Below the pieces are notes generated by a model. It was not told where the DNA came from and ran no database searches. It worked only from the letters and a program-made list of their open reading frames with translations. From the NCBI GenBank assembly GCA_902780235.1, contig CACZEL010000001.1:149822-213821 (forward strand): DNA of 64,000 nt, in the 5' to 3' direction. Numbering within the stretch: the stretch's first letter is position 1; every line of letters starts with the position of its first letter. Of the stretch, positions 1 through 63,790 are shown in pieces. This DNA comes from an uncultured Bacteroidales bacterium. Lineage in GTDB: Bacteria > Bacteroidota > Bacteroidia > Bacteroidales > Paludibacteraceae. A program made the translations under genes and the position numbers.

Positions 1-157
1 TGCAGTTATCGATACCCATCCGGATCGACTCCTGCGCCGTCTCCCAACTCTTGCCGTCCGCACCGTCCTCGCCGTCCGGCCGTACATACCACGTAGCCGC
101 TGACGCATTCAGCGCCAGCGCTACGAAGCATAAAATATTAAAAAATCTTTTCGTCAT
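1..157 (-). CDS. Exported beta-helix-type protein, N-terminal fragment
   Basis: This is the first 52 residues of a gene that continues past the left edge. The start MTKRFFNILCFVALALNASA is a Sec signal peptide with an AxA-type cleavage site. The mature protein begins TWYVRPDGEDG...GKSWETA, a motif typical of the first turn of secreted right-handed beta-helix proteins (pectate-lyase or chondroitinase-B-like) in Bacteroidota. It is the last visible gene of the operon that begins with the SIS isomerase. Its ATG (155-157) lies inside the first unit of an octamer array. Catalytic residues are out of view, so a polysaccharide-lyase role is only a guess. Confidence 0.6.
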   Translation of the reverse strand, partial: MTKRFFNILCFVALALNASAATWYVRPDGEDGADGKSWETAQESIRMGIDNC

Positions 158-183
158 TACGTCATGACGTCATGTCGTCATTA
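152..183. repeat. Octamer array CGTCATKN x4
   Basis: Four near-identical 8-base units (CGTCATTA, CGTCATGA, CGTCATGT, CGTCATTA) fill the gap between the PfkB stop codon and the next start codon. The array includes the start codon of the downstream gene. Confidence 0.8.
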
Positions 184-187
184 CGAT

Positions 188-1135
188 TTATTTGCTCCAC
201 CCAAAACGTTCTCTACCGATCCGCTCGACATCTTCGCGATTGGTGAAAGCCGTGGTACCGCCGGCTGCCGTCGTGTTGACTGCACCGGTCATGTTACCGT
301 ACTCCTGACATTTATCCAGCGGATCGCCGGCTGCCAGACGTGCGATGAAACCGCTGTTGAAACTGTCGCCGGCACCGATACAATCGACCACATGCTCGTT
401 CAGCAGCGCTTTCTGCATGCGGTCTGGTTGACCCTTGCGCATCAGCAGACTACCCTTACTGCCGCACTTGATGACGGCTGCATTGGCGTACGGACGGATC
501 TTCTCGATCGCTTCTTCGAGTGTTGCACTCTTCGTCAGGAACTTGAGCTCCGTCTCGTTCGGCATGAACACCGTCAGCAGCGGCAGCACCGCCTTATAAT
601 CGAGATCCCAGGTCTCCGTCGGGTCCCATTGGCTGTCCAGCGACGTGGTGACGCCGTTCTCCTTACAGAGTTCGAGGATCTGCATCAGGTCGCGCTTCAC
701 GCCGCTTTGCATAAAGATCGACGAGATATGAATATGTTTCGCCTGCTTGAACACGTCCGGATTGATGTCATCCAGCGACATATAATCCATCGCACCCTGA
801 TAGGTCAGGTTCGCGCGGTCCTCATCGTAACTCATACAGATCGTGGCACCCGTCGCGTACTTATCCTGACGAATCAGATAACGGGTATCGACGCCTTTGG
901 CACGCAGACTCGTCTCTACAAGGTCACCGAAACTGTCGTCTCCGATCATGCCGCAGAACGCTACTTTGGCTCCGAGAGCTGCTGCATTGGCAGCGAAGAT
1001 AGCCGTTGAGCTACCCAAAGTAAGGGTCATCTGCTTGGCAAACTTCTCTTTGCCGATCTCGGGTTCACCTTCAATCTGATTCAAGATCAGATCCACATTC
1101 AATTCGCCTAAAGCGATAATATCGAAATTTTTCAT
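188..1135 (-). CDS. PfkB/ribokinase-family sugar kinase
   Basis: A cytoplasmic ATP-dependent sugar or sugar-phosphate kinase of 315 residues, the normal size for the family. The N-terminal motif is IIALGELNVDLIL. The C-terminal PfkB signature CIGAGDSFNSGF (about residue 250) supplies the anion hole and the catalytic Asp. A start six codons upstream (1153) is possible, but ATG 1135 gives the usual family start. In the operon it follows AgaS-like, GatZ-like and CE7 genes. The likely reaction in that context is phosphorylation of tagatose 6-phosphate or a related ketose 6-phosphate. The family is certain; the substrate is inferred from neighbours only, and fructokinase or KDG kinase are alternatives. 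Confidence 0.88.
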   Translation of the reverse strand: MKNFDIIALGELNVDLILNQIEGEPEIGKEKFAKQMTLTLGSSTAIFAANAAALGAKVAFCGMIGDDSFGDLVETSLRAKGVDTRYLIRQDKYATGATICMSYDEDRANLTYQGAMDYMSLDDINPDVFKQAKHIHISSIFMQSGVKRDLMQILELCKENGVTTSLDSQWDPTETWDLDYKAVLPLLTVFMPNETELKFLTKSATLEEAIEKIRPYANAAVIKCGSKGSLLMRKGQPDRMQKALLNEHVVDCIGAGDSFNSGFIARLAAGDPLDKCQEYGNMTGAVNTTAAGGTTAFTNREDVERIGRERFGWSK

Positions 1136-1140
1136 GGTCC

Positions 1141-1168
1141 TTTCAATTTTCAATTTTCATTTTTCAAT
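1141..1168. repeat. Heptamer array TTTCAAT x4
   Basis: Units TTTCAAT, TTTCAAT, TTTCATT, TTTCAAT directly abut the stop codon of the CE7 esterase gene and fill most of the gap to the PfkB start. Confidence 0.8.
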
Positions 1169-2566
1169 TTACATGAATTTCTTCCGGAAATTCTCTATCA
1201 TCGTCCACCAGTTCTTCGGGTAGTCATGCGTCATCTCCGGATAGAAATGGTACTCTTTGTTCTCCGCCGGCGTCAGCAGGTTGTTATACGGCGCAATATT
1301 CGTATGCGGCGGACAAGTGGTGTCCTTTCCTCCGCTCGTTGCCAACACGCCGCAGCTGATCCGTGTCGCAAGGTTCTTCGTATCGAAATACGACAGGAAA
1401 GCGTACATCTCCTCGTCCGTCATGCCCATGGCCTTGGCTGCCGCCTTCGCCGTAGAACCCGGCCAGTCCACGATCTGGAAATAGTCCGGGAAATCGCCTA
1501 AGAAAGCGACGTTCGCGCAAATCGCCGTGAACGGATAATTGCTCAACGCAGCCGCAGCATAACTCAGCGCACCGCCCTGACTCGATCCCTCGGCAAACAA
1601 GTGATCCATGTCGCTCGTCGCACGCGTGGCCATGAAGTCCACTGCGCGCACGCAGTCCATGAACGCGCCTCTGTAATAATAGGAGTCTTTGTGGCCGAAC
1701 TCATACGAACACCAGTCGCCGTAAATATTCACCAAGTCACCCAAACCATCGGGTTCGCGACTACTCTCGGGACGATTGTTGATATACTGACCGCGATGCG
1801 AGAGATAGAACTCCGCATAGTTCGATCCGTTACCCGACGGACACTCTACTTTCGTCTTGCTGTTCTGCGAATCATAACCGTAGAAATGCATCAGCACCGG
1901 GTGCTTCTGATCGTCTTGCGGTTCGCAGTAATACCCGCGAATGATCACCGGTTCGCCCTCCAATCCATCCGGCACGGAACGCAGTTCCACCAGATAGACC
2001 TTGCGCTGTGCAGTGCTCTTGTTGGGCAACTCGATCAGGTTAGCCTGCATGTCGATCGCTGCCAACTGCTCTTTCGCCGTCTGCCAGAACTGGTCATAAT
2101 CGGGCTGTTTGTCCGGTTCGGAGACGATGTCAAACACATCGATACCGAAATTGAGCACACCTGCATTCTTGCCTTCTACGTAGCAGTTCGCTTTGTAGAA
2201 ACCCGGTGCCAGGTCGTCCTCGGTCGTCAGCACGTAGTCCACCTCACTCTTACCGGCGATCTCGATGCTGTCGAGCACTTCGGTCACCACTTGCCGCATG
2301 TCCGAGGTGATCTTACCTTTGACCTCCACCTTCACTTTCGCGACGTTCGGGTTCGTGATATGAATCGTCACCTGCGGTTTGCCGCTCCAGAGGCAGTCGT
2401 CCGTAATGACCACTGCCTTCTCGATGAGCGACATGTCCGCAGGTTCTACCTGCTCTTCCGGCTGCTGCGGTTCTTCCGCCAGCTTCGGTTTCTCGCATCC
2501 GCATGCCCCGAACAGCACGACCAGCGAAAAGAGGAGAACGAAATATTTCTTACTTGAGATAATCAT
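1169..2566 (-). CDS. CE7-type acetyl esterase (acetyl xylan esterase / cephalosporin-C deacetylase family), lipoprotein
   Basis: An exported alpha/beta-hydrolase, 465 residues. The N-terminus has a lipoprotein signal peptide ending LFGACGC. Residues of about 45-140 form an extra beta-rich domain ahead of the hydrolase, and the CE7 (AXE1) domain follows. The nucleophile Ser is in GSSQGG (about residue 325), the Asp in SGGKDTTCPPH (about 413) and the His in MTHDYPKNWW (about 445), so the triad is complete. CE7 enzymes remove O-acetyl groups from short oligosaccharides. The start overlaps the end of the GatZ-like gene by 17 bp, which suggests translational coupling. Its place among sugar-phosphate genes suggests it deacetylates the sugar feeding that pathway. 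Confidence 0.88.
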   Translation of the reverse strand: MIISSKKYFVLLFSLVVLFGACGCEKPKLAEEPQQPEEQVEPADMSLIEKAVVITDDCLWSGKPQVTIHITNPNVAKVKVEVKGKITSDMRQVVTEVLDSIEIAGKSEVDYVLTTEDDLAPGFYKANCYVEGKNAGVLNFGIDVFDIVSEPDKQPDYDQFWQTAKEQLAAIDMQANLIELPNKSTAQRKVYLVELRSVPDGLEGEPVIIRGYYCEPQDDQKHPVLMHFYGYDSQNSKTKVECPSGNGSNYAEFYLSHRGQYINNRPESSREPDGLGDLVNIYGDWCSYEFGHKDSYYYRGAFMDCVRAVDFMATRATSDMDHLFAEGSSQGGALSYAAAALSNYPFTAICANVAFLGDFPDYFQIVDWPGSTAKAAAKAMGMTDEEMYAFLSYFDTKNLATRISCGVLATSGGKDTTCPPHTNIAPYNNLLTPAENKEYHFYPEMTHDYPKNWWTMIENFRKKFM

Positions 2567-3779: not shown

Positions 3780-3792
3780 AAAAAACTATTTT

Positions 3793-3896
3793 GTTTGATA
3801 TTGTTTCACAATGTTTGATATTGTTTGATGCTTCGCGTTTGAGGTGGTTAACGATGTCAAACGATTTCAAACTACCTCAAACGATCTCAAACTATT
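3793..3896. repeat. Decamer arrays GTTTGATATT x4-5 and TCAAACGATN x4, opposed
   Basis: The gap between the SIS and GatZ-like genes holds 10-base units GTTTGANNNN (3793-3846), then 10-base units TCAAACNNNN (3857-3896). The second set is the reverse complement of the first. The right end runs into the SIS stop codon. Confidence 0.8.
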
Positions 3897-5016: not shown

Positions 5017-5076
5017 ACTATTTGTGTTTTTAATTGTTATATCGACCTATCTTGGGCGATCCCCAAAAATCCGTGG

Positions 5077-5084
5077 CAAAATTA
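5077..5084 (-). promoter_or_regulatory. Candidate -7 box of the sugar-phosphate operon
   Basis: The minus strand reads TAATTTTG, a match to the Bacteroidetes -7 box TAnnTTTG, 61 nt upstream of the SIS start. No TTG was found at the expected 20-nt spacing, so support is partial. Confidence 0.4.
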
Positions 5085-5142
5085 CTCGTTTTTCCTTATA
5101 TATTTATGCGCGCGTATTATGTTTTTCAGCATACTTTCGAAA

Positions 5143-5179
5143 CAAAAAAATGCAACACGCCGAAAATCAGCATGTTGCA
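5143..5179 (-). terminator. Intrinsic terminator after the three-repeat secreted protein
   Basis: On the minus strand the arms TGCAACATGC and GCGTGTTGCA form a hairpin followed by ATTTTTTTG. It lies 34 bp past the stop codon of the gene at 5213-8059 and separates it from the sugar-phosphate operon. Confidence 0.75.
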
Positions 5180-5212
5180 CGTTTCGTTTCTTCTTTCGTA
5201 ACGTTTCGAACT

Positions 5213-8059: not shown

Positions 8060-8084
8060 AATACGATTTATTCAAATTTGCGCA

Positions 8085-8115
8085 CAAAAGTACTACATTT
8101 TTTTAATATATGCAA
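8085..8115 (-). promoter_or_regulatory. Promoter of the three-repeat secreted protein
   Basis: On the minus strand, -33 TTG (8115-8113) and -7 TACTTTTG (8092-8085) are separated by exactly 20 nt, in the extended context CTTGCATAT. The start codon is 26 nt beyond the -7 box. Confidence 0.7.
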
Positions 8116-8122
8116 GTTTTAT

Positions 8123-8153: not shown

Positions 8154-8183
8154 CAGCCGAAATTCACTTAAATCACAAATCAT

Positions 8184-10356: not shown

Positions 10357-10454
10357 AACAGCTAACAGCTAACAGCTAAGAGCTAACAGCCAACAGCTAA
10401 GAGCTAACAGCCAACAGCTAACAGCTAAGAGCTAACAGCCAACAGCTAACAGCT
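10357..10454. repeat. Fourteen-unit degenerate heptamer array AACAGCT
   Basis: Fourteen consecutive 7-base units (AACAGCT, AAGAGCT or AACAGCC, with no indels) run from 4 bp after a stop codon to the first base of a terminator stem. A fifteenth unit (AAGAGGC) is part of that stem. The same CYAANAG word family recurs at 16396, 53770, 55168 and 55486. Confidence 0.95.
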
Positions 10455-10485
10455 AAGAGGCGGAGCATTTTGCCCCGCCTCTTTT
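10455..10485 (+). terminator. Intrinsic terminator
   Basis: AAGAGGCGG and CCGCCTCTT form a 9-bp stem followed by TT. It closes the transcript of the BIG2-type gene. Confidence 0.85.
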
Positions 10486-10539
10486 ATGACTCTCAATTCC
10501 TCATTTTTACCTGTTTGCCTGCTGGTTTCCTGCTATCTC

Positions 10540-10583
10540 CAATGGATGCTCAATGGATGCTCAATGGATGCTGAATGGATGCT
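10540..10583. repeat. 11-bp tandem repeat CAATGGATGCT x4
   Basis: Three identical units and one with a single change (GAATGGATGCT) lie in the 600-bp gene-free stretch between the BIG2-type gene and the beta-sandwich gene. A short open frame across it (10486-10701) looks like chance. Confidence 0.9.
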
Positions 10584-10662
10584 CCACCCGACATCTACGC
10601 ACTCTATAGACTCTGAAATCCCAATAATTAGGTGCAGAATATTCACCTTTCCAAATCGACTG

Positions 10663-10693
10663 CAAAGATACAACTTTTTTTTCAATTATGCAA
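10663..10693 (-). promoter_or_regulatory. Orphan promoter reading into a gene-free stretch
   Basis: On the minus strand TTG (10693-10691), a 20-nt spacer and TATCTTTG (10670-10663) match the consensus perfectly. It would transcribe leftwards through the 11-bp repeats, where there is no convincing gene. A small RNA or a decayed gene is possible. Confidence 0.5.
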
Positions 10694-10878
10694 ATTTTTA
10701 ACTCAAAATATGTATTTTTTATTCATTTTTTTCGAAACGTTGCGAAATGGGAAGTGAAACGTTTCAATGATTGTGCAAAAGTGTATAAATCAGTTGTTTA
10801 GGCTGTGCATGTTTGCGAATGCCTGTTTTTATGTTTTATAACACATTTTACGCACACGTACGTATCCTATATTTTTAG

Positions 10879-16251: not shown

Positions 16252-16253
16252 AC

Positions 16254-16281
16254 CTTTCACTTTTCACCTTTCATCTTTCAA
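16254..16281. repeat. Heptamer array CTTTCAC x4 between convergent stops
   Basis: CTTTCAC, TTTTCAC, CTTTCAT and CTTTCAA fill the 26-bp gap between the stop codons of two convergent genes. No hairpin terminator is visible here. Confidence 0.8.
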
Positions 16282-16847
16282 TTTAATACTATTTCTCCGA
16301 AGAACTGCGGACAATGGAAGTCCGGTTTCGGTAAATCAATCGGCCGCCAACTCAAAAAGTGCGGCCGTTTGGTTTTATCGGCGCATTTGTAAAAATTGGC
16401 TTTTAGCTTTTGGCCTTTGGCTATTGGCTTTTGGAAAATGAGATCCAAGGGGATTTTCTCTTCTACCGTCCATTCGAACAGACCGTCTTTCTCTTCGAAC
16501 GCCTCTCTGGGGAAGGAGCACTTGCGCTCGATACGCGCCATCTGTTCCGGCGTAAAAGGTACGACATCCTCTGCTCTACCCTTGCGACGGCTACCGACCA
16601 TCGCGCCGATACAGTTGCATTCGAAATTGCAGTACGTATCCTCGCCCGGCACTTGGCAGAAGAACTCCACGCACGAGTCTTCCCACACCGGTCCCTGATC
16701 TTCGGTCGTCACAGCCCGCAGTTGCTCGCCTTTCACATGCCATTTCAGTAACAGCCAATCTTGGCTGTTCGATACTTCCACCGTCACCTCCGGACACTCC
16801 GGAAACGCCTCCGGCCAATTGACGTTATCAATAGATAGATTTACCAT
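16278..16847 (-). CDS. CBM9-like carbohydrate-binding protein, cytoplasmic
   Basis: 189 residues with no signal peptide. The sequence has the CBM9-2/DOMON-like pattern of short Bacteroidales proteins: LLLKWHVKGE, then VWEDSCVEFFCQ (about residue 55), YCNFECNCIGAM, and a C-terminal FLSWRPIDLPKPDFHCPQFFG. Trp and Phe residues suitable for sugar stacking are kept. The segment PIAKGQKLKANF (about 137-150) is encoded by a CCAAAAG heptamer array, an in-frame insertion in an otherwise conserved fold. It lies downstream of the NahK-like kinase in one operon. A role in sensing or handling the same sugar is inferred only. Confidence 0.75.
   Translation of the reverse strand: MVNLSIDNVNWPEAFPECPEVTVEVSNSQDWLLLKWHVKGEQLRAVTTEDQGPVWEDSCVEFFCQVPGEDTYCNFECNCIGAMVGSRRKGRAEDVVPFTPEQMARIERKCSFPREAFEEKDGLFEWTVEEKIPLDLIFQKPIAKGQKLKANFYKCADKTKRPHFLSWRPIDLPKPDFHCPQFFGEIVLN
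16396..16437. repeat. In-frame heptamer array TTGGCTT x6 in the CBM9-like gene
   Basis: TTGGCTT, TTAGCTT, TTGGCCT, TTGGCTA, TTGGCTT, TTGGAAA. On the coding strand the units read CCAAAAG/CCAATAG and belong to the CYAANAG family of the 14-unit array. Confidence 0.85.
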
Positions 16848-20343: not shown

Positions 20344-23300
20344 TCTTTATAAATTTGAAATTTGAAATTTGAAATTTGAAATTTGCTTCTTCGATAGCAG
20401 TTATAATCGGGTCGCAGAGGTTTTCACCATAGACCTCTAATTCCCATAGGGACGCACCGTAACCGGTGTTGCGGGTCTTACAGAAGATGCGAACAAACCG
20501 AGCCTCTACGGGTTCGTTTTGGACGCGGATATCGTGTATCTGCGTACCGCCTTTGGCGCCCGTAACCGACTTCACGGTTGTGTAGTTCTCCCCGTCGGAA
20601 CTAATCTGGATATCAAAAGAAGTCGCATAAGCATTCTCCCAGATGAGCCGCACTTTGGTCAGGAGATAGCACTCCTCCAAATCAACAGCAATCCATTCGT
20701 TATCTTGGAACCGGCTGGACCATCTGGTATCCATCTTTCCGTCCACCGCTTTCGGCGCTGCCGTACCATCTCCTTCGGCGCCCGACGCCGTTGCAGGTTT
20801 ATGGAGTGCAAGGTTCACTTTCTCAAACGGCAGGACGTGTACTATCGCAGTATCTACCCTCTCAAAGCAGGGGAAGATAAGCTCCTGATCGCCCACCTGA
20901 GTCGCGAGATAAGTATTCACACAGGTATCCATCACGTCGCCAAACTGATTGAGGATAGAAACGACAAAAACCTGCTGCGTACCGATCGGTATGGTAACCT
21001 CTGCGGGTGTCACCTCTGCCGTAGCCGCCATCTCAGTCTCCATGACGATAATCGTCAGAGACGCCGAGCAGCCACCCACTGTACGCGTCTCCGTAAAGAG
21101 ACCGTAGTCCGGATAAGTCTTCTGCTCCGAAGAAGTAGAGATAATCTCTCCGTTGAAGTTATACGCCGTCGTAGTAAGAGTGGTTGTTTGACCCTGATGA
21201 AGAACGGTGTCGGACGCTGAGAGGGCAACCACAAAGATCGCTTCCGGATCTCCGGTCAGCGGTCGTCCGTACGCTTCCAATTCATAGAGCGAAGTACCAT
21301 ACTGTGTAGCGCGCTGGAGTCCTGTTAAGCGGATATATCGAGCACGAGTAGGACCTACCTCCTGCCCCTCCATAAAGGGAAGGGAGATTCTTTCTACACC
21401 GCCGGCAGAGGCGTACGTAGCACGATGCCACGTCGTGCCGTCTGACGAGAGTGCGAGTTCGTATTCGGACGCAAAAGCTGCCTCCCAACGCAGGATCAGA
21501 TGGTCAATAAAACATACCTCACCCAGATCCACCATCGCCCATTCACCATCATGATGCGCTGAGCCCCAACGGGTGTTCGTCTTGCCGTCCGTCAGATTCG
21601 CTGCTACACAACCGGCGTTCTCTTCCGACGAAGCTGTAACCGGTTTATGCAAAGCCAAGTTCGGATATGGAAGATCCCAAGCCAGAGGATCGGGTTCTAT
21701 CTCTTCATTTTCATCTTCGATGGTCGTCACCGTCCGAGTCAGCCCACCGCTGATAAGCGTCAGCCCATGCGGCACATTCACCGTGGTATCGACAGCACCG
21801 AAGAAACGGACACTTAAATTCGTTTGACTTACATTATATACCGCATAGGTCATCCGTCCACTCAAGGTATCGGTATAAGCGCACGCGAGCGGATGGTTCG
21901 CATAGATATCATATCGTTTCTCACCGAGCGCTTTGTGGCTATGGGCCAACCAATAGGTGATACCGCCGGTGTCGGGATTCTTAGCAAGCGCCTTCCCCAT
22001 CCTGTCCATTCGATCCCACACATGGATCGCCGAGTCGGCATCAAAGAGCGACAGATAAGACAGACATACATTGCCCAAACCGGACTCATCACCCAGACCA
22101 CCTTGCGGTGCCTCGTAATTACCCACCTCTTTGGCCGCATACATCTGCGTGTAGTCCCAACGGGTAAACGGCAGATCTTCGCTGAACGCATTGGTCAGAA
22201 TAGGTGAGATAGGTAGCCATTGGATCGAATGCATCCATACCGGATCGCCGGAGAACCACGTCCACCAGCCTACTCCCTGCATCGTCAAGTTGCAGCAATA
22301 GGGATGGTTATATTTCGTATAATCGATATTACGCCGTTTCTTGTCAAACCAATACTCCGCCGTTGCGCGGGTTTCAAGGGTATACCCCATGATTCCGGCT
22401 TCCAGCATCGCCTGATCCTGCAAGGCAGCGCCTAACATCCATATGCCCCCCCAGCCTTGGATAGCTTCCGATGAAGACTCCTGACCGTTTCCGTTTCCGC
22501 CGTTACCTAAACCACCGGCAAACGAATGTCCACAGTAAGGATCGAGGGTGCGGAACCACGGTTCATCGGCAGAACGCTCCCAATTGGCATAGTCTCGTGC
22601 CACCTCACGCGCCATCTCTCCGTATTGCATACGGAAATCATCATCCAGCATACAGAGCAACGCAGACGAGTAGATGAAATAGCCGTAGTGAAAATGATGA
22701 TCGTTGAAGGTATCCGAATCATACGAGGGATCCATGCCTATGAGCGCTCCCCAACGCGGATAACGAGCGAAGTAATAGCGCTCTTCACCGGGCGTCCAGG
22801 TGTACCAATCGATGAGCACCTCTTTGAGTCGCTGCTTTGCCATGCGGAAAGTAGCCGTATCCCCCATCTGCAGTGCAAAAGTCATGTAGTGCGCCATCTG
22901 AGTCAGCCCTTTTCCTCCCCAATACGTATCGCCGCCGAACGAGCCCCGTTTCGCATAATCGGCATTAAGCGCCGTCATACGAGCCTCCGAGAACTCTTCG
23001 CCCCACTCCATCGGAGCTGGGAAGAACGGCAGGAAAGCGTGTACCGGATATGTAAACGTAAAATCGTTACCCTGCGCCACTTTCATTGTGCCACGTGGCG
23101 TCATATAATTGAAAGCTGAAAACTGAAAACTGCAAACTGATGGCTCATAATAATGATGCGGCAGGAAGCCCATCAGTACAGGTTGATCTAAATGGAAAGT
23201 GGTCGATAGAGAAGAGGTGTTGGCGTCGTAAGCATAGGTCATCGTTGTCTTCCGCGGAATACGGAACGCATACGAAGCAAAAGCCGCAGCATTCAATCCG

Positions 23301-23962: not shown

Positions 23963-25587
23963 AACTTCACCATGATCGTTTCTACGCTATTCGCCGGCAT
24001 GTCGATATGGGCGATATTGTCACCGATCTGCAAGGGGAAAGAGATTGCTTCGCCAGTATTGAGGATATTCACGGCAATCGTTCCGTTCTCCGCCTGCGTA
24101 GCGCATAGGTAGATACGTTCGTTGGAAGGATTCGTTACTCCCAACACCGTATCGCCCGGACGCATGGAGCGGCTGAACTGCTTGAGCACATAGTAATACG
24201 GCGTAAAATAAATAATTGGTGATTGGTGATTGGTGATTGGTGAATAGTCGATCATCACTTCCGCACCGCAAAAATTACCTACGTGGTTGGGTCCACCGAT
24301 GGAGTCGAGGACGATGTTCCAGTCACAGAAACCGGTGAGCCAGTGGTTCATGCCGTTGATGATATAGCGCGCGTAGCGATGTACCGGTGCATATTTGGGA
24401 TGCGTGTCTCCCGCCCATTGGGTGGAGTACGCCCAGTCGGTGGCTTCCGGATTCCACCAGAAAGCGTCGTTTTGGAACCAGCAGCATTCCTTGTACCCCG
24501 CATAATCGCCTACACCGGGCCAACCGTCCAGACCGAGGTTATCGATACATCCTTCGGAATGGAAGAGGGTCTTGTCGGGGTTCGCGGCATGCACGCGGTC
24601 GAGTGTCTCCGGGAAGCAATCCTCCGTACTGCCGTACCAATGCACCGCCATGCCGGTGGTGTAATGCTTCGCCTGCTCATTGCTGTAGATGGCTTGGGTG
24701 TAGGGTTCCATCTCGAAGATGTTCTGGTCAAAACCGTAGATCGCTACGTCACTCAGTCTGCGTTTCTCGAAGGTCGGACCGAGGTACTCGGCAATGAATT
24801 GCGTTTCCACTTCCGGCGAGAAATCCATGCTCTCCCAACCGCCGTCGTTACCCATGGGTTCATTGACCGGCGTCACCGCCCATATGTCGATACCTTCGGC
24901 GCGCCACGCTTCCACGTACTTCGCCAGATAGTTCGCATAAGTCTGATAGTACTCCGGCAGCAACGCACCGCCGCGGTGGAAACCGTTTTCGCGTTCGTAG
25001 TATTTCTTGTTCTCCTTCATCCAAGCGGGTGCAGTCCAGGTGTTCGCCATGATGCGATAGGTCTTATCGGGCTGGCTCTGCTTGATCTTCCACACATCCA
25101 GCATCAGATGATAGAGGTCGTAGTGCTCATCTTGGATCTGCGGGTATTTCGCTTTGGGAAAACCTTCCTTATCGCGATCGAGCGAGAAAGAGAGCAAGGC
25201 CGTATCTCCATCCTCTTCTGCCAAAGAGTATTTACCTTCTACCGAGAAATCCGATGCCCCAATCTGGGTGCGGGTGACGGAGAAGTTAGCCCCGTTCTCG
25301 CCGTACAGCTCTTCCAAGATCGCCTGCCGATCTTCCTTCGAAAGGCACGCCAGCACGAATGCCGACGACTCGGTGAGCGAACCGCCAAAACCGTCGATCG
25401 TCTGACGGCGGTCATTGAGGTTCACCACGATAGCTCCCTCGACAGCACCTTTCTGAAAAACGACCGCCTCTTTCTCGGCACACTTGTCTCCGGCTTCGGA
25501 GGTTAGCCATACTTGACTCGACGGCACCTTAGCCGTACATGCGGTAAGCGCTACAAGCGCGAATAAGTTGATTAAGCGCGTATGCAT
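23959..25587 (-). CDS. GH30 beta-glucanase (beta-1,6-glucanase type likely), lipoprotein
   Basis: 542 residues; the lipobox lies in ALVALTAC. GH30 features are IDGFGGSLTESSAF (about residue 70), acid/base Glu in TPVNEPMG (about 240) and nucleophile Glu in LFHSEGCIDN (about 342), followed by the C-terminal beta-domain. In laminarin PULs, GH30 enzymes remove beta-1,6-linked branches, which fits the neighbours GH81, GH16 and GH128. Within the beta-domain (about residue 450) a perfect ATTGGTG x4 array encodes SPITNHQSPII, an insertion of the kind seen in other genes here. The start overlaps the phosphorylase stop by 16 bp. Beta-1,3-exoglucosidase or xylanase activity cannot be excluded. Confidence 0.88.
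   Translation of the reverse strand: MHTRLINLFALVALTACTAKVPSSQVWLTSEAGDKCAEKEAVVFQKGAVEGAIVVNLNDRRQTIDGFGGSLTESSAFVLACLSKEDRQAILEELYGENGANFSVTRTQIGASDFSVEGKYSLAEEDGDTALLSFSLDRDKEGFPKAKYPQIQDEHYDLYHLMLDVWKIKQSQPDKTYRIMANTWTAPAWMKENKKYYERENGFHRGGALLPEYYQTYANYLAKYVEAWRAEGIDIWAVTPVNEPMGNDGGWESMDFSPEVETQFIAEYLGPTFEKRRLSDVAIYGFDQNIFEMEPYTQAIYSNEQAKHYTTGMAVHWYGSTEDCFPETLDRVHAANPDKTLFHSEGCIDNLGLDGWPGVGDYAGYKECCWFQNDAFWWNPEATDWAYSTQWAGDTHPKYAPVHRYARYIINGMNHWLTGFCDWNIVLDSIGGPNHVGNFCGAEVMIDYSPITNHQSPIIYFTPYYYVLKQFSRSMRPGDTVLGVTNPSNERIYLCATQAENGTIAVNILNTGEAISFPLQIGDNIAHIDMPANSVETIMVKL
24215..24242. repeat. Perfect heptamer array ATTGGTG x4 in the GH30 gene
   Basis: Four identical 7-base units sit inside the beta-domain coding region. 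A one-unit slip would frameshift the last 90 or so residues of the enzyme. Confidence 0.97.
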
Positions 25588-28500
25588 ATTTGAATCGTTA
25601 TTTCTTTGATTTTTCCGTCACGGGCGAAGATATGAGCACTATCTTCTTTCGACAAAACGGACTTGTTTTCCTGCACAATGATACCTTGCGGCATATCCTC
25701 GCCGGATTCGTTCAAGATCTGGTACGTGAAAGTGACGCCACAATAGGAGAATGACAATTTATTGTTAAAGAAATCATCCGGATTGATCATCCTCGGGTGA
25801 ATAACGATCTGTCCGTCTTCCACCTCGATTCCCAGTTCGAACCATCTGCTGATGATATCTTCCTTCACTTGTCCGGTCAGACCGGGTTGTTGTGCGCCGG
25901 ACATCGAAGGCGTATGCGAATACGCATCGAAGGGGAACGCACCGTACTGATCCGGTGACTTATGCGAACCGATACCTAAACGGATCGACTCATAATGCGT
26001 TACTAAGCGCTTAGCCGTCTCCGTCATCATATCGCTACGTTGTATCACTTCTCCTACCGCCAGCAGCAGTTTGCTGACCATATGCCAATAGATACAACCC
26101 AGTCCTTCGTACTTATAGAACGTGCCGGATCGACCGGTGAAGGCATGATGGTTAAAGACCGACTCATACAGGTCCTTCAACTCGTCCGGTAACTCATTCG
26201 CATTGCGGTACTTGGCATCGAAATGGATACCTCCGTCGCAGTCCTGCTTGAGGATCGAACCCAGGTATTTCTGTACTACCGGTAGCGACTTGGCTTCTTC
26301 GGGAAGGTTATTGAGTTCGAGGAACGTCTTCCGCGGCCGATTCGGATAGAGCATATAGCTCATCTGATCCGGACGGTAGAGAGCCGATTCGGCCATCTTA
26401 TCCAGCAGTTCAACCGATTCCTCCGGACTCAGCAAACCCGAACTGAGTACCGCTACCTGACCTTCCAGCATCTCATAGAGATGGGATATTTCGATATCGT
26501 TCTGCGTGAATTTAATCAGGTTATACGCCTCATATAATCCGTCTTCGCGTTTGTTGGCACGGATAGACTCGTCGATCTTATGCAGCGTAGCGGTGCAGAA
26601 CTCCTGGAGTTCCTCTAATGCCATCGTCTGCATCTCACCGCTCAAGCCGTTATATACCTTTGTTCGGTATTGTTCGCCTGCCGTACCAACGATGTCGGTG
26701 AACTGCTTGGTGTTACCATTCGGGTAAGCATGACGTATAGCGCGCAAGAAATCCAAGGTCTCTGTAGCAATTTGTATATTGGATTGAACGAGTTGCTGCA
26801 AGAAGGTCACATAGCGACGCATATAACACAAGGTCACCATCGATGCGCCGTATCCTACAAGCGCATTATTGGCATCGTTCCATTCGGGACGCAAAGTGTT
26901 CATCCATATACCGGCATTGGGCACGAAGTTCGACAGCTTGGTCAGCAGCGTGATGAGCAGTTTATCCGCCATCGTCGTACGACGCGGACGGTTGTTCTCA
27001 TCCAGGATCCATTTGGCTTCTTTACCCATCTTCGGCACCATGGCCATGATCTTGTTATGCAACTCGGTATCGAACCAAATGCTGTTCTTCGGGTCGGCTA
27101 CGATCTGCGCATAACTCTTCAACCGATACGGCACGTTCGCAAACGCATACTGCCGTTCATTCAATAATCCGCGTAAGGTGTCCGGATCATGCTTGTAACT
27201 AACCTCCAACAGCCTCAGCAGGTAGATGATCTGGTGATCCCCCCAATAACCGATATTCGACCATGGGTTTTCGGGTTCGATCACTTCCCACTCGAAGCCC
27301 TCATTCGAGATACGGTACGGGTTATAACCGTCTGCCGTAGTGGCGTTGAGGAACTTGGCAATGATATGGTTCGTATATAGCGGATAGCTGTACGAGAGAG
27401 CCTCCCAGTTCTGGAAGATATCCCGCCAGTTACCTTGATAGCCTACCACCGGCTTGCCTTTATCGTCCTGCACATGGATGGCAAATTGATTCCACGGCCG
27501 CGAAGGATCACCGTGCCGGCGTCCGAAGGTGAGGGGCAGATACTCCGGGTCCTCATCCTTTTGAGGCGGATAGGTCAGATAGTAGCCTCCGCGCATGGTG
27601 TTAAACAGCACGTTCGCGAAATGACGCGCATCGTTGGCGCGGTCATTCGTGGACTGAAATCCGTCGTTCTTACCAACGATATTCAGCAGCGCTTTTATAG
27701 AGTCGATGACAGCTTTATCAATTTGCTTGATAGCTGTTTTGGGGCGCGCAATGAAATGCATCAGTTCATGGACGGCTACCGCATCTTGATTCACATCCAG
27801 TACGTTATACCAAGCCTGACTCTTGCGGTCCTTCAAGGTAAACCGCGTTTTCGCAACATAGTTGGCCCGCACTCCTTTGGATTCGGTTTGTGAATAGTCA
27901 GCATGCGGCAGACCAAGGGTATAGATCGTATTACACGTGAGCGCCTCGGAGGGTTCAGCCCGATCGACGAGAATCGCCTCCATGCGGAAGAGCGCCAGCG
28001 AAGTACCGGGCACGAGTTCGGTCTTTTTGTATCCGTCCACAAGAGTCGAGAACTCATTCTGCGTCTTGCGCTCTACACCTGCGGGCAATACGTTCTGCAG
28101 CATATCGGTCAGTTCGATGCGAACGGGCTCTTTGCGCACATTCTCCAATTCAGCACGGCGTACCCAGCCGTGTTTACCGGCAGGAGCCCAGTAATAGGAG
28201 AACTTCAATCCCAAGGTTCTATTCTCTTCGCAGAACTCGATCTGGTTTCCGTAGGTGGTTTTAGAGATCGATCGACGAATCTGATATACCGGTTGCTGCA
28301 TATCCGAGAACGGAATCCAGAGGCTTTCTCCTTTTTCCTTTAACCTTTCACCTTTCACCTTAATAATCGTCTTCGGTCCCGTGAACTCATGGCTGTCTGT
28401 GATCTTATCGTCCGTGTAGTACGGAAACAAGGCCTCGTTCGGACTCCGACGACCGCAGGTCAAACCGCCTGTCGAAGACAGGTACATCCATAGATCTGTG

Positions 28501-29956: not shown

Positions 29957-29970
29957 CGCATTATTATTTT

Positions 29971-30002
29971 ATTACGGTATTACGTAATTACGTAATTACG
30001 AG
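29971..30002. repeat. Octamer array ATTACGTA x4
   Basis: ATTACGGT, ATTACGTA, ATTACGTA, ATTACGAG fill the gap downstream of the GH16 gene and include its stop codon (29996-29998). Confidence 0.85.
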
Positions 30003-30961
30003 TTCTTTTTATAAACGCGGATGTAGTCCACATACATCTTCACCGGTGTGCCGTCGGCAGGCAGCGCCGTTACTTTTTGGAACGAAGGATCATCCGCCGT
30101 GATGAGTTCCGGATATTTCTCTGCCGCCGGCATGTTGGGGAAGAATCCGCCTACCGACAGGTTGAGCACGAGATAGAACGGGTGGTTGAAATAATGTCCC
30201 GGTTCGTTCACCTCTTTGCCGCGCAAGGAGAGTTGGAAATACGGTTCTACCTCCGGATAGAGGTCCTTGTCCAAGTACATAGCGATCGAATCTTCACTCC
30301 ACTCGAGCGTGAACAGATGGAAATCACCCTGCACGGGGTAGTCCGCCGTATTGAACTGCCCGTAGTTCGGGTACGCGCCGTTGTTGAACGATTCGCCCCA
30401 ATGGCAGGCACCATTGAAATAGCGGTCTTGCGTACCGGCCTCGATGCCCTTATGATGCCCCATCTCGCAGATATCGATCTCGCCGCATTTGGGCCATACG
30501 ACCCGTCCTTCGGCAGCCAGTTGAGCGGCACGCGCATCGACATCATCGTTATTGCCCAAGTCGGTAGCCAAGTTATTGCCTAACATCCAGAACGCCGGCC
30601 AAAGACCGTCTGCGGTATTAGGGAAAGCAATACGGGCTTCTACCTTGCCGTACTCCACCGTCACTTTTCCCTGCGTATTCAAGCGCGCAGACGTACAGGG
30701 ACGGTTCTTGTAATCCTCCCGCTGTGCATTCAGCACGAGGCAACGATCGCCCGTCAAGGGGTGATTCTCGATGGTGATATTCTTCGGTGCATAGTACTGC
30801 AACTCCGCATTGCCACCGCCACGAGCATTATCCTCCATGTTCCAATAAGCGGCATTTAATGTTTCGCCGTCGAACTCATCGCTCCAAACGAGTTGCCACT
30901 CCGGCTTGGAACAAGCCGATAGAATACAGAGTACAGAATACAGAATACAGATTTTTTTCAT
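29996..30961 (-). CDS. GH16 beta-1,3-glucanase (laminarinase-like), lipoprotein
   Basis: 321 residues; lipobox LCILSAC. A single GH16 domain starts WQLVWSDEFDGETLNAAYWN. The catalytic signature is CGEIDICEMGHH (about residue 159), with nucleophile and acid/base Glu in E-x-D-x-x-E spacing. A Cys replaces the usual Met/Gly within the motif, and a roughly 20-residue insertion (NDDVDARAAQLAAEGRVV) precedes it. It would cut beta-1,3 or mixed-linkage glucan at the surface. The signal peptide is encoded by an AGAATAC heptamer array. It shares one base with the stop of the previous GH16 gene. Confidence 0.92.
   Translation of the reverse strand: MKKICILYSVLCILSACSKPEWQLVWSDEFDGETLNAAYWNMEDNARGGGNAELQYYAPKNITIENHPLTGDRCLVLNAQREDYKNRPCTSARLNTQGKVTVEYGKVEARIAFPNTADGLWPAFWMLGNNLATDLGNNDDVDARAAQLAAEGRVVWPKCGEIDICEMGHHKGIEAGTQDRYFNGACHWGESFNNGAYPNYGQFNTADYPVQGDFHLFTLEWSEDSIAMYLDKDLYPEVEPYFQLSLRGKEVNEPGHYFNHPFYLVLNLSVGGFFPNMPAAEKYPELITADDPSFQKVTALPADGTPVKMYVDYIRVYKKNS
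30921..30948. repeat. Heptamer array AGAATAC x4 encoding a signal peptide
   Basis: AGAATAC, AGAGTAC, AGAATAC, AGAATAC. Read on the minus strand they encode ILYSVLCIL, the hydrophobic core of the GH16 lipoprotein signal peptide. Confidence 0.9.
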
Positions 30962-41283: not shown

Positions 41284-41311
41284 TATAAAAAAAGCGCCCT
41301 TAGGGACGCTT
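41284..41311 (-). terminator. Intrinsic terminator overlapping the esterase stop codon
   Basis: On the minus strand AAGCGTCCC and GGGCGCTT pair around a TAA loop and are followed by TTTTTTAT. The loop is the stop codon itself; the 5' arm encodes the last three residues Lys-Arg-Pro. Confidence 0.85.
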
Positions 41312-42094
41312 AAAGAGAATTTTGAGGAAACGGCAGATGTAATCTTCCCAATTGGGCCATACATGTCCGCCTGCACTCTCGTAGTAAGTGTATTCGATAT
41401 GGTTCGCTTCCAACCATTGGCGGTACTCCTGCACATTGTCGTAGAGGAAGTCCTCATTGCCGATCGCGATCCAATAGACGGGCGACTCCTGCATCTGCAA
41501 CCGCACCTCTTCTTCCCAGTTGTCATACGCCGGATCCGAATGCGGATGACGGATAGCGGGTGAGAACAAGCCTACGTACGCGAACTGACCGTGCAGGTAA
41601 TGCGATATATGCATGGAGTGAAAACCGCCCATGGAGAGACCCGCTATCGCGCGAAGCGAAGGATCATCGCTGACGTTGTATCTGCGCTCCGTCTCGGCCA
41701 TGAAATCCGCAAAATGGCGTATCCATTCGCCCGACATCGCATTGGCACGCTCTTCCTCACTCGTCTCGCGGTGCGGACAGTTATCCGGCATGATGATCAC
41801 CATCTCGCGCACTTGACCGAGCTGCAGCAAGGAGTCCATCCAATGCAGCAGATGTCCCTGCTCTATCCAATCATGCTCATTGCCCCACATACCATGCTGC
41901 AGATAGAGAACGGGGTACGTCCTTTCACCTTTCACCTTTAACCTTTCACCTTTATATCCATGCGGCAGATACACCCGGCACGGCACATGATTGATCGTGT
42001 CATAGATCACCGTTCCCACTTGCGGCTTCGTCTCTTTCGGCGCACATGCCACCATCGCCATGACGGCGAATAAACAAAGAATCAGTTTTTTCAT
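41300..42094 (-). CDS. Ser esterase of the esterase D / CE1-like family, lipoprotein
   Basis: 264 residues from ATG 42094 (MKKLILCLFAVMAMVAC), a lipoprotein signal. The alpha/beta-hydrolase shows YLQHGMWGNEHDW, the nucleophile in AGLSMGGFHSM (about residue 151), Asp in IGNEDFLYDN and His in ESAGGHVWPNWEDY. Related enzymes remove feruloyl or acetyl groups from polysaccharides. It is the last gene of the operon starting with the aldo/keto reductase, not of the PUL, but lies next to susC. The segment YKGERLKVKGERTYP is encoded by a CTTTCAC array. The true ester substrate is unknown. Confidence 0.85.
   Translation of the reverse strand: MKKLILCLFAVMAMVACAPKETKPQVGTVIYDTINHVPCRVYLPHGYKGERLKVKGERTYPVLYLQHGMWGNEHDWIEQGHLLHWMDSLLQLGQVREMVIIMPDNCPHRETSEEERANAMSGEWIRHFADFMAETERRYNVSDDPSLRAIAGLSMGGFHSMHISHYLHGQFAYVGLFSPAIRHPHSDPAYDNWEEEVRLQMQESPVYWIAIGNEDFLYDNVQEYRQWLEANHIEYTYYESAGGHVWPNWEDYICRFLKILFKRP
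41922..41949. repeat. In-frame heptamer array CTTTCAC x4 in the esterase gene
   Basis: CTTTCAC, CTTTCAC, CTTTAAC, CTTTCAC encode KGERLKVKGER. The same peptide word appears in the phosphorylase (KGERLKEKGE), a protein of different fold. Confidence 0.92.
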
Positions 42095-52166: not shown

Positions 52167-52172
52167 ATAATT

Positions 52173-52207
52173 GTCGTTTGTCGTTAGTCGTTTGTCGTTA
52201 GTCGTTA
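52173..52207. repeat. Heptamer array GTCGTTA x5
   Basis: GTCGTTT, GTCGTTA, GTCGTTT, GTCGTTA, GTCGTTA lie in the gap upstream of the small lipoprotein gene, 7 bp before its start codon. Confidence 0.9.
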
Positions 52208-52215
52208 GTCAAGTC

Positions 52216-52243
52216 CAATGACCAATGACCAATTATCAATTAA
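52216..52243. repeat. Heptamer array CAATGAC x4
   Basis: CAATGAC, CAATGAC, CAATTAT, CAATTAA follow a second array with different words in the same gap and overlap the stop codon (52240-52242) of the upstream gene. Confidence 0.85.
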
Positions 52244-53719: not shown

Positions 53720-53723
53720 GCAA

Positions 53724-53762: not shown

Positions 53763-53769
53763 GGACTTT

Positions 53770-53832
53770 AGCTATTAGCTATTGGCTATTGGCTTTTTTT
53801 TGCTAACAGCTAACGGCTAACAGCTAACAGCC
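53770..53832. repeat. Two opposed heptamer arrays, CYAANAG family
   Basis: The first block reads CCAATAG/CTAATAG on the minus strand; after a run of T, the second block reads CTAACAG, CTAACGG, CTAACAG, CTAACAG on the plus strand. It lies 12 bp past the stop codon of the giant gene. Confidence 0.85.
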
Positions 53833-53844: not shown

Positions 53845-56800
53845 TTAGAGTTTTTTACCCGTTACGTCATAGCGTTCGCCGTTGCGGATGATGACGACGT
53901 GGTCGTTCTCAATCAATTTTCTTATTTCCTCATTTTCGCATTTTTTCATTTGCAGGATGATTGGATCTTCGAGCGAACCGTGGTGGGCGTTGGGAACATA
54001 GTCTATGGACGAAGGACCGATGTACGATGTACCATTTATGTACGAAGGTACTAAAGTACAATTATCCATTTCGAAGCGGAGCTCACCAACCTTGTCACTC
54101 TGGATCGTGAGGAAATACAAGACTTCGTCATTGATGATTGATGATTGATGATTGATGATCGGCTCGGCAACAGCGGCAAGTTCGTTGCCCACATAAACCT
54201 TTAATTCTTTCACTCCTTCATTCTTTAATTCCTTAACACAAGCGATCATGGTCATGTTGGTAGCGGCTTGCGGGTTGGTGAAGAGACCGGCTTCGCCGTT
54301 TGACATCGTTTGACGTCGTTTGATATTGTTTGATGCCTCCGGCTTATAGAAGGCTATCTCGACGGAGCCGGGTTTGAGGCGGCGGAAGAGGTATCCTTCG
54401 CCCGGTTGGAGGGCCGTCAGGTCACCTACCCATCGTTTGTCTGCGGAGAAGGTAGCGAAGCGGTTATGCGCCTTGATCATATCGCCGGTGGACGCTTTCT
54501 GATAGTAGTCCGCGAGGGCCTCGGTGACGGAGACACGTTGGTCGAAGAGACACGGCATCGGGCTCCATTGACCGTCACCACGCACTTTGATCTTCATCGA
54601 GTCTTCCGGCAGGATCTCACCCGATATGCGCATCGTGTTGCCGTTGGCGGCGTAGATCATATAGAGTTGCGAATAATGCAGTTGGTCGAGCGTACCGACG
54701 AAGCTATCGTTCGCCGCATCGTAGGTGCTGAACTGCCGCGTATTCGGGTTCTTGATCAGATCGCCTTCGGTCCATGGTTTGGCAGCGGACATGCAAGTTG
54801 AAAGTTGGAAGTTGAAAGTTGAAAGGTCGAGGTGAGTCGATACCCAGTTCCAACCGGCGCTGAGTTCGATCTGCTGTCGCTCGCTGCCGCCGGTAGTGAG
54901 GATGAGCGGTTCGTTCTCGCCGCAGCCATAGACGAAGCCATGGGAGAAGAGCACGTTCCGGTTCGCCGTCAGGTCATAGACCTTACCGGTCGAAGCCTGC
55001 CAGAGTTGGAAATGAATCTGCTTGCGGTTCATCTCATCGTTACCGAGCACGGTCAGATAGACATCGGTGGTGTTGCTGATGGTGTTGAAGGTCACGTTCG
55101 CCTGACCGACGCACTCGTTGCGATAGATCGCATAGACGATATCGCGTTCGTCGGTGTCGTAAACATTGGCTGTTAGCTCTTGGCTATTAGCTATTAGCAC
55201 TTGTGCGCAGATGGACATGTTCAGCGCATACTTGCCTTCGTCCACGCCGTCGTAAGGCGGGATAGCTTCCACGGCATACTCGATATGCAGCGGTTCACTC
55301 AGTCCGTCCTCGTCGGTCAGATAGATGATGTCGCTGTATTCGCCTACCGGTATCTGCGTGTTGAACGTCAGCGTGACAGTCTGCTCACCCATCGGGTCGA
55401 TTGCGCCATATTCGGGGCTGACACTCAGCCATGACGGCAGGGACTCGATCGTGTATTGATGGCGTTTGCCGCTATTATTGATGATGGCTATTAGCTTTTG
55501 GCTATTAGCTGTTAGCCCATTATCCTCTATGGTCACACTCACTTTCTTCTCGGACCATTTGAGGGCGTTGCGATCGACGAAAGCGGTCCAGCTGACCGGC
55601 GAAGCCATCGGGTTGCCGTTCAGGTCTTCCACGTCGCGGACGGTGACATAAATCGACTGTTTGTTGACCTCGTAGTCGCGGTTGAGGATGTTGATCATCA
55701 ACTCGTCCTCATTGAACGCCCAATTGAAATAGAGCTTATTCAGTACACCTTTCGACTTGATCGGCGCGTTAACCTCATTTACCATTTGGTCATTTACCAT
55801 TTGGCTATTTATGAGGGGCACCACTTTCTTCACTACATTGCCGTTGGCGTCCTTGAAGGTGCGTTGGTCATTGATGGAGAAGCGCTGTTCGATGATGCTG
55901 TTGGGGTTGGTATATTGTTCCTCGAACGGCAGGTAAGCGAACAGACCCATCTCGTCGCCGGTGAGGGCATTGTCTTCGTACAGTTCGACAAGCGACTTCG
56001 GCAGTGCTTGCTCAAAGATCACGAACTCATCGATATTACCCTTGAAGCCGTCACCGCCGAGCCACATCGTACCACTCAGCCCGCCCACTTGGGTGGCTGC
56101 ATAGGTCTGAATCATCTTGCCGTCCAGGAAGAGGGCGGCGTTGTTATAAGTCCGGCTGACGGTCAGCACCAGATGATGCCAGTTACCATCTGCATAGCCG
56201 TCCGGTACGTTCAGCTGCAGATCTTTCGAGTTAAAGAGCGTACCGCTCTTCTCAGCCTTGAACCACAGCATCATCGTCATGTCGTATATCTTCGATCGTC
56301 CGAGCAGGTTGCCGTTCAATTGGACCGCTTCGCCGTCCAGACGGAGGGAGTAACCTTTCTGTTTGTTCCAACTGCAGCCGTCCAGATAGAGGGTCGCACC
56401 GTGCGCATGATCGGTCACGGTCTCACCCTTACCTTCGTCCATGCGGTAGTAAGCGAGTAACTCGCGTTCGTAGCCCGTGAGCGAGTGGTTGGCTGTCGCA
56501 CTGATCTCTTCGAGTGTCAGCGCTTTGGTCCATACACGTGTCTCGAGCATGTCGCCTTCGTAATCGCTACCGAACTGGAAGTAGGCACTGCTGCCTTGCG
56601 CGCTCTGCAGCTCTTCCGTCGCACCCAAAGTCTTGTCTGTTACCTCTACCGTACCGACGAAGAACCGTGTTCTGCCGGTCTTCTCCGAAATGCATACTAC
56701 GCGTGTGAAGGCCATGATCGGATCCAGCACCTTGGAGGACTTGCCGAGGAAATTCTGTCCGTTGGTCTTGATCATACGCAGCCGGTTGTCTTTGGTGAGT

Positions 56801-63606: not shown

Positions 63607-63645
63607 ATTTGTTGTGTTTTTTCTGTTTCACAAAACTTTGCGCGG

Positions 63646-63676
63646 CAAAGTTACTGCTTTTTTTTGACATATGCAA
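63646..63676 (-). promoter_or_regulatory. Promoter of the 3253-residue gene
   Basis: On the minus strand TTG (63676-63674, context CTTGCATATG), a 20-nt spacer and TAACTTTG (63653-63646), 39 nt before the start codon. Confidence 0.8.
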
Positions 63677-63679
63677 GCA

Positions 63680-63719
63680 AAAACAGAAAAATCGCCCGAA
63701 GTGGACGATTTTCTGTTTT
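63680..63719 (-). terminator. Second copy of the terminator hairpin
   Basis: Arms AAAACAGAAAAATCGCCC / GGACGATTTTCTGTTTT with a 5-nt loop, one base shorter on one side than the copy at 53724. It directly precedes the -33 box of the giant gene's promoter. Confidence 0.7.
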
Positions 63720-63790
63720 GTTTGATGTCGTTTGATGTCGTTTGAGATTGTTTGATGTCGTTCAAACCCTCAAACTTTCAAACCTCAAAC
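63720..63790. repeat. Decamer array GTTTGATGTC x4 plus TCAAAC words
   Basis: GTTTGATGTC, GTTTGATGTC, GTTTGAGATT, GTTTGATGTC are followed by CTCAAAC-type words in the reverse sense, the same opposed layout as at 3793-3896. Confidence 0.88.

Follow-up and report, generated by a model that had tools for sequence, protein, structure and literature searches.

Short tandem arrays of heptamer words in spacers, protein loops and predicted signal peptides of a Paludibacteraceae genus

The short tandemly repeated repetitive (STRR) sequences of cyanobacteria have heptamers as units and, in RNase P RNA, are located in the P12 region; a 1997 paper by Vioque reportedly, to go by its title, deals with such a sequence inside the RNase P RNA gene. 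In this work we studied comparable arrays in a stretch of 64,000 nucleotides (hereafter the window) from an uncultured Bacteroidales bacterium of the Paludibacteraceae, a family named after its type genus Paludibacter (assembly GCA_902780235.1, contig CACZEL010000001.1, positions 149,822 to 213,821 of the forward strand). The arrays probably represent a genus-wide STRR-like load, whose members arise, are copied, decay and give way to others again and again in those parts of the genome that tolerate them.

Several systems of this kind have been described. STRRs of heterocystous cyanobacteria can form hairpins and lie in promoter and spacer DNA (PMC2670836), and three tandem heptanucleotides are described in Calothrix (PMC4692102). 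The arrays studied here resemble STRRs in their heptamer units and in their presence in RNase P RNA (three of the eight such RNAs read, all from congeners). They differ in that they belong to another phylum, occur also in enzyme loops and predicted signal peptides, and comprise many words per genome with species-specific vocabularies; the likeness is one of published description. The TAACTGA repeats (MacGregor, 2015, PMC4679880) are heptamers near gene starts in Beggiatoaceae, cyanobacteria and some Bacteroidetes; two sets are reported in Paludibacter propionicigenes, together with other heptamer arrays in Bacteroidetes spacers. They consist of a single word, are mostly intergenic and have their forward frame closed by stops, whereas here dozens of words are found, many of them in frame.

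Rickettsia palindromic elements (RPEs) code for a peptide inserted in frame into unrelated metabolic genes (PMC10969869), and in-frame insertions are seen here too; however, RPE families are about 150 bases long with a conserved peptide, while our in-gene arrays span about 27–44 bases and vary in word. The heptamer simple sequence repeats of Xanthomonas and Nostoc are likewise in excess, dispersed, placed between co-directional genes and variable among close relatives, but they are G-rich and under-represented in coding DNA (PMC4692102). The palindromic amphipathic repeat coding elements (PARCELs) share with our arrays the shuffling of repeat-coding DNA among proteins, but carry a 25-residue amphipathic repeat in open reading frames (ORFs) without assigned function (PMC2996958), whereas here heptamers lie in enzyme loops. 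Thus, heptamer arrays in spacers and in RNase P RNA, as well as in-frame repeat insertions, are already known in other groups. Among open-access papers, judged by title or the start of the abstract, none on in-gene heptamer arrays in this group was found. As far as these searches tell, what is new is the occurrence, throughout one genus and with vocabularies that differ by species, of in-frame heptamer arrays in conserved-protein loops and in signal peptides.

An earlier note, made from the sequence of the window alone, had counted about 36 arrays. Tandem Repeats Finder at a score threshold of 40 gave 47 rows, which correspond to about 38 separate places after merging by eye, and all 11 family positions listed by that note carry the named words or close variants. 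A strict self-match detector (score at least 14, periods 5–12) retained 21 arrays, of which 15 had period 7, two period 8, three period 10 and one period 11, and found 102 more in another 375,821 bases of the same genome. A second variant (periods 4–20, at least 2.9 units) revealed 126 arrays in 439,821 bases: 83 of period 7, 15 of period 8, 14 of period 11, which forms the second peak of the spectrum, five of period 10, four each of periods 9 and 14, and one of period 16. The strict detector found no arrays in 20 Markov shuffles of the window (order 2 and 4), and none appeared in 15 shuffles (order 1, 3, 5) of the 439,821 bases. Chance origin, which an array density equal to that of shuffled sequence would have suggested, is thereby ruled out, and the observation of the arrays is confirmed. 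A tandem 7-base unit at many dispersed loci (83/126) is thus the rule, although periods of 6, 9 and 12 would fit genes better. Copy number was only loosely uniform, contrary to the stricter uniformity claimed before: outside genes the period-7 arrays ranged from 3.4 to 14.3 units, and within genes from 3.9 to 6.3. The latter range led us to reject the idea that unit number is set by the reading frame alone. CRISPR (clustered regularly interspaced short palindromic repeats) was rejected as well, because the units stand head to tail and are not parted by unique spacers; nor was any transposon anatomy seen, by eye and with no systematic scan, so that the earlier impression that the arrays look like neither is supported to that extent.

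The source is a metagenome-assembled genome of 2.28 Mb in 58 contigs with a completeness of 79%. The set that was searched contains 178 genomes of its genus, among which G045 comes closest by its NrnA (87% identity). Seven of the 33 records of relatives, which were detected through the NrnA-like protein, name rumen, reticulum or omasum as origin, and the bacterium is probably of a rumen type. With one detector we found 28.6 arrays per 100 kb in this genome, 18.3 in G045 and 12.5 in five other congeners pooled, while 31 named congener loci pooled gave 25.5 (0 to 72 in single loci). The latter figure rests on 31 of 33 loci, with L166 (on a contig that matches G045:C36 in length and place) and L198 (from Paludibacter, without arrays) omitted, and the congener groups overlap slightly, since L193 is apparently the contig G002:C1. 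Other genera of the family had 3.1 arrays per 100 kb in 287,489 bases (period 7 in four of nine arrays). For other families of the order the figure was 2.2, and their 403,726 bases contained no array of period 7. This contrast makes a high load a trait of the genus, with traces in the family. Similarly, a 26-base GGTKAAA pattern was met in two of 120 family genomes, both among the eight of that sample which belong to this genus.

The 83 period-7 arrays used 39 words. A word was shared in 153 of 3,403 pairs of arrays, compared with a mean of 10.8 (maximum 23 in 200 trials) when letters were shuffled within words; the sharing of identical words by unlinked sites, already remarked in the earlier note, thus exceeds the letter-shuffle expectation. 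Vocabularies differ between species and are common to many unlinked sites within one. The CAACAGCTAACAGCTAA heptamer pattern (two mismatches allowed) occurred 220 times here and 0–20 times in each of 24 congeners, with two matches here when reversed. By contrast, the GAGAATT pattern matched 107, 78, 52, 46 and 21 times in five other species and once here; since its backward control gave three matches in this genome (up to seven per genome in general), the count here does not rise above the control. The octamer pattern ACGTMATRACG was found 22 times in this genome, 19 in G045, 14 in G059, five in G070 and once or twice in seven genomes, while 50 of 61 had none.

These data bear on the possibility that each array arose by independent local slippage from a resident seed, with no copying between sites, and that shared words follow from composition and stop avoidance. 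The excess of period 7 and the slippage proposal published for bacteria generally (PMC4679880, PMC4692102) agree with it, as do the growth by 21 bases from a shorter related run at L017:517 and the frequent end of homology near the array edge. Against it stand the excess of identical words over letter shuffles, the sharply different vocabularies of congeners and a composite of two words that appears again and again, joined by a similar link, in most of a set of seven genes, L210 and L215 being divergent. We regard local slippage without copying as an unlikely account, though one to be kept in mind.

That arrays have been inserted in the loops of proteins with no relation to each other, as the earlier note proposed, was supported by comparisons of three proteins. 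In the GH30 protein the array peptide SPITNHQSPI replaces a four-residue turn of relatives and is absent from all 15 congeneric orthologues; the same residues at the same positions, which would have spoken against the earlier note, were thus not found in them. The loop DNA is exchanged rather than simply interrupted. In IspD the first array (EGERLKVKGER) is missing in G045, while the second (KVKGERLKV) is common to G045 and L096. Orthologues were scanned at a laxer threshold for 7- or 8-base units, better matches being taken first: 30 IspD loci (match in 57/61 genomes), and 30 plus 22 new NrnA loci (match in 164/178 genomes). For IspD this gave 15 arrays in 14 of 30 genes, with many different words and all within alignment columns 92–112 or 153–181. 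For NrnA it gave 27 arrays in 22 of 52 genes, of which 13 lay in columns 33–66, 11 in columns 205–240 and three at columns 144 to 191. Mean column conservation at the arrays was 0.16 (IspD) and 0.14 (NrnA) versus 0.57 and 0.58 overall.

Structure models were obtained for two of these proteins. In the IspD model (mean predicted local distance difference test score, pLDDT, 91.5) the first array, residues ~99–109, corresponds to a helix end and a low-confidence stretch (mean pLDDT 64 for 101–110, below 50 at 103–105) followed by a strand, and the second, residues ~152–164, to a two-strand hairpin. In the GH30 model, of middling quality (mean pLDDT 68.5), array residues ~449–458 are flanked by a strand on either side, and pLDDT drops under 50 at 450–454. 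Where orthologues were compared, the arrays are insertions or replacements in loops of low conservation. In L124 and L106 (NrnA-like and IspD orthologues of congeners) these loops hold other peptides, e.g., NPTPALPSREGER and SPLHGGTERG, so that they seem open to several repeat classes; we take peptides of these two types to be typical of other dispersed repeats. It should also be mentioned that the likely GTG start of IspD in this genome borders on a GGTGAAA-type array located upstream (L087:1501-2205 and L014:14519-14556).

Genes were called by a home-made codon-usage caller, and an array was assigned to a gene if more than half of it overlapped. By this measure 10 of 21 strict arrays of the window were in genes, and 38 of 102 in the other stretches, with coding bases at 94% and 87%. 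Given that this gene model leaves no more than 6% of the window as non-coding, the arrays show a strong preference for DNA outside genes. The earlier estimate of about 23 of 36 arrays in coding regions was therefore too high, most being in spacers. In total 42 of 123 arrays lay entirely within genes (37 internal and five N-terminal). None of these 42 contained a stop in the gene frame, in line with the open frames seen in the earlier note, while the other readings of the 37 internal arrays had one in 96 of 185 cases; the test is partly circular, because genes are by construction ORFs. The GGTTAAA unit provides a stronger one. The GGTGAAA unit puts TGA into all frames within 21 bases. Nineteen matches to the GGTKAAA pattern merged to 16 places, and the stop-removing GGTTAAA unit was present in all 11 of them with a long open sense frame. 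Among the remaining five, four were pure GGTGAAA and one had GGTTAAA; in three of the five, the opposite strand was open over a long stretch. This family thus bears the mark of selection that keeps the frame open.

The array-bearing genes had their best NCBIfam matches above the curated cut-off to PrmC, RibD and XseA, and below it to IspD, an NrnA-like protein, a CCA-adding-type nucleotidyltransferase, a TtcA-like protein, a glutamate-synthase-type subunit and an RND permease. IspD, PrmC, the CCA-adding enzyme and RibD are essential or nearly so. KVKGERLK, PTANSQ, NHQSPIT and ESQKSK-like peptides recur in unrelated proteins. The mean hydropathy of the real readings of internal arrays was -1.10 versus -0.16 in stop-free alternatives; in the three main families 17 internal arrays were in the hydrophilic sense and three in the reverse sense, 12 others being unclassified. 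The earlier view that arrays give hydrophilic peptides and are tolerated only in linkers and surface loops stands for the loop insertions; it fails for predicted signal peptides, one hydrophobic internal stretch and the RNase P RNA of congeners.

Turnover was assessed against the sister species G045, where 37 of the 102 non-window arrays could be anchored at ~82% identity and scored by eye (L015:13083 had no usable alignment). Among 16 in-gene arrays, four had the same word, two had fewer units in G045 and 10 were absent or replaced by other sequence there, the NrnA site among the latter with a related heptamer run of equal length. Several spacer sites carry a different array in each species, e.g., TCGAGATC-type versus CGTCATAA-type octamers at L017:7812. 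An "active" generating process, as the earlier note put it, is thus borne out for turnover between species and not for activity within one. The net length difference was a multiple of three in 15 of the 16 in-gene arrays, the exception spanning a stop codon. Phase-variation (contingency) repeats, in which a change in unit number would shift the frame and switch genes on and off, come to mind because the in-gene unit length is not a multiple of three. Yet the arrays are short and mostly imperfect, their in-gene length differences keep the frame as just described, and several lie in the best matches to IspD, PrmC, the CCA-adding enzyme and RibD, named above as essential or nearly so. This makes phase variation extremely improbable.

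Seven of the 11 GGTKAAA sense places were gene starts. Here MKGERLKVKGILILFFLSIFNFQFSTC-like peptides are encoded, with GGTGAAA units for their charged part and, at most of the seven, TTTCAAT-type units for the hydrophobic one; the cassettes of L210 and L215 diverge in the second half. The seven N-termini are 47–87% identical over 15–88 residues, with no alignment beyond residue 88, and the proteins belong to different Pfam families (OMP barrel, TPR, TraB/GumN, DUF6048; three without match). To judge from these features, the array-made N-termini would act in export. Four of the five N-terminal arrays are hydrophobic, including mkkICILYSVLCILsacsk of the window. Among the matches listed for a 130-base query, those of 100 bases or longer with an identity of 85% and above numbered five in this genome, three in G045, three in G050 and one in G006, with a few copies at 72–75% in other genomes. 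A match was present in 33 of 61 genomes, most others of those listed being shorter pieces, mainly repeat words.

The cassette raises the question of a dispersed mobile element of the MITE (miniature inverted-repeat transposable element) or RPE type, moved by a transposase in trans and with array units as its body. Its dispersal as a unit of more than 100 bases would fit. So would the folding inverted pairs formed by some spacer copies, and the fact that unrelated genes take up arrays without loss of frame, as they do RPEs (PMC10969869). However, no fixed ends or common body were seen, and words and lengths vary by site. Partners elsewhere were found for 32 of 37 in-gene period-7 arrays, and in 23 of these 32 homology extended no more than 10 bases past the array, both sides summed, so that no conserved RPE-like body of 100–150 bases emerged; one array, in the signal-peptide cassette, shared 107 bases with its partner. 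No target-site duplications were seen by eye in the 37 own/G045 alignments, with no systematic scan, and the GH30 loop DNA was exchanged, not merely interrupted. A mobile element is in our opinion quite improbable.

Of 61 genomes of the genus, 53, with this one among them, gave an RNase P RNA match, whose length varied from 260 to 520 bases. Eight were picked to include the longest and the shortest; three of them, all from congeners, contained heptamer arrays (nearly 10 TAATGCT units in one, a score of 17 in another and a weak score of 12 in the third), while the RNA of this genome had none. Folding of spacer arrays was tested in 148 cluster-strand combinations: the mean z was -1.17, with 46 values below -2 and 18 below -3. 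This indicates a mild folding tendency, and a strong general role as hairpins or terminators is rejected. Co-directional spacer arrays were closer to the upstream stop in 43 of 65 cases and to the start in 22, which gives no clear regulatory reading. The arrays might alternatively be an adaptive device, either written by a dedicated enzyme for loops, linkers and signal peptides, or serving in spacers as regulatory hairpins. The array-made N-terminus common to seven predicted exported-type proteins of different or no Pfam family, and the somewhat better folding of spacer arrays than of shuffles on average, are in line with it, but turnover within the same loops and low conservation resemble tolerance, and strong folding is absent from most spacer arrays. 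We consider such a device very improbable.

The window itself contains, at 188–51728, a sugar-use locus with SusD, a TonB-dependent receptor, GH81, GH30, GH16, GH3 and an MFS transporter, and additionally PfkB, GatZ/KbaZ-like and SIS genes. Its arrays are as follows.

152..185, no strand: octamer CGTCATGA array (self-complementary word), just 3' of the PfkB gene stop
1141..1170, no strand: TTTCAAT array, PfkB-like/AXE1-like spacer, outside the shortened gene model
3791..3829, no strand: decamer GTTTGATATT array, spacer; under the strict threshold
3850..3892, no strand: decamer TCAAACGATC array, spacer
10357..10456, plus: AACAGCT array of 14 units, beginning a few bases past the stop at 10352; of the family counted genome-wide with the CAACAGCTAACAGCTAA pattern
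10540..10583, no strand: undecamer CAATGGATGCT array, spacer
16252..16280, no strand: CTTTCAC-type array, immediately past the stop at 16251; under the strict threshold
16396..16434, minus: AATAGCC-type array, CBM9_2 gene 16278-16847; peptide FQKPIAKGQKLKA
20351..20385, minus: CAAATTT array, perfect, 5 units, C-terminal tail of GH81 gene
23110..23139, minus: TTTTCAG array, GH81 gene; peptide SVCSFQFSAFN
24215..24243, minus: CAATCAC array, GH30 gene; peptide SPITNHQSPI
28324..28361, minus: GGTGAAA/GGTTAAA array, gene 25572-28607; peptide KVKGERLKEKGES
29970..30000, no strand: octamer ATTACGTA array, spacer
30921..30951, minus: TCTGTAT array, gene of a GH16-like protein; gives the hydrophobic core of its signal peptide mkkICILYSVLCILsacsk, of lipoprotein type as predicted by eye
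41921..41953, minus: GGTGAAA/GGTTAAA array, gene 41300-42094; peptide KGERLKVKGER
52171..52210, no strand: GTCGTTA array, spacer
52215..52242, no strand: CCAATGA array, spacer, adjoining the GTCGTTA array at 52171..52210
53768..53831, no strand: opposed TTAGCTA and AGCTAAC arrays, spacer; potential hairpin, z -4.7 (minus) and -3.9 (plus)
54130..54159, minus: CAATCAT array, 3238-aa gene; peptide IINHQSSIIN
54297..54334, minus: decamer TCAAACGATG array, 3238-aa gene; peptide ASNNIKRRQTMSNG
54795..54825, minus: CTTTCAA array, 3238-aa gene; peptide LSTFNFQLSTC
55165..55198, minus: ATTAGCT-type array, 3238-aa gene; Tandem Repeats Finder only
63720..63755, no strand: decamer GTTTGATGTC array, spacer

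Several octamer arrays have self-complementary words, unlike the heptamers (CGTCATGA, ATTACGTA, TCGAGATC; 152-181, 29970-30000, L017:7812, L015:14612). The period-11 array at 10540..10583 is part of a longer dispersed element (10538-10697 versus L016:12956-13115, 160 bases, 72% identity). Related direct repeats of 23–24 bases, at 23902-23953 (AGACCGCTACCGCTCAAAG...) and 37759-37806 (GACCGCTACGCTCAAAG...), lie at gene junctions of the sugar locus and belong to a longer repeat size class.

The interpretation given in the earlier note is thus partly supported. For a repeatedly renewed STRR-like load, we suppose that the polymerase would start new arrays when it slips or the DNA loops, preferably over 7 bases. 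Words would then pass from array to array through template switching or gene conversion, with no transposase involved, and purifying selection would retain harmless arrays, some of which may turn into working signal peptides or longer loops. Several points weigh against this reading. The genome is metagenome-assembled and its gene model home-made; three of the 31 named congener loci lack arrays; six of 37 internal arrays are hydrophobic (above zero); and word sharing could partly reflect a bias toward A-rich words. Of the 21 spacer arrays compared, about nine have the same word in G045 (by eye), so turnover is partial, and activity is shown only as turnover between species. Finally, the cassette shares more than 100 bases, more than the array itself, so that longer segments are duplicated as well.

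Units divisible by three are expected to dominate inside bacterial genes (PMC4679880, PMC12699852); contrary to this, 7-base units stand in frame in conserved enzymes throughout the genus. Orthologous loops with different words in each species amount to many parallel natural experiments on repeat DNA becoming protein. Loop tolerance becomes directly measurable in them, and they offer a system for studying why bacterial repeats favour 7 bases, which has been remarked on but not accounted for. The similar peptides in unrelated proteins are here repeat products and not signs of homology. A bolder idea, which we put forward as a doubtful one, is that a dedicated array-writing process with a footprint of 7/8 and 11 bases continually copies species-specific words into accessible DNA and serves as a source of new loops, entire signal peptides and RNA stems; if true, it would be a bacterial route from repeat DNA to new protein segments.

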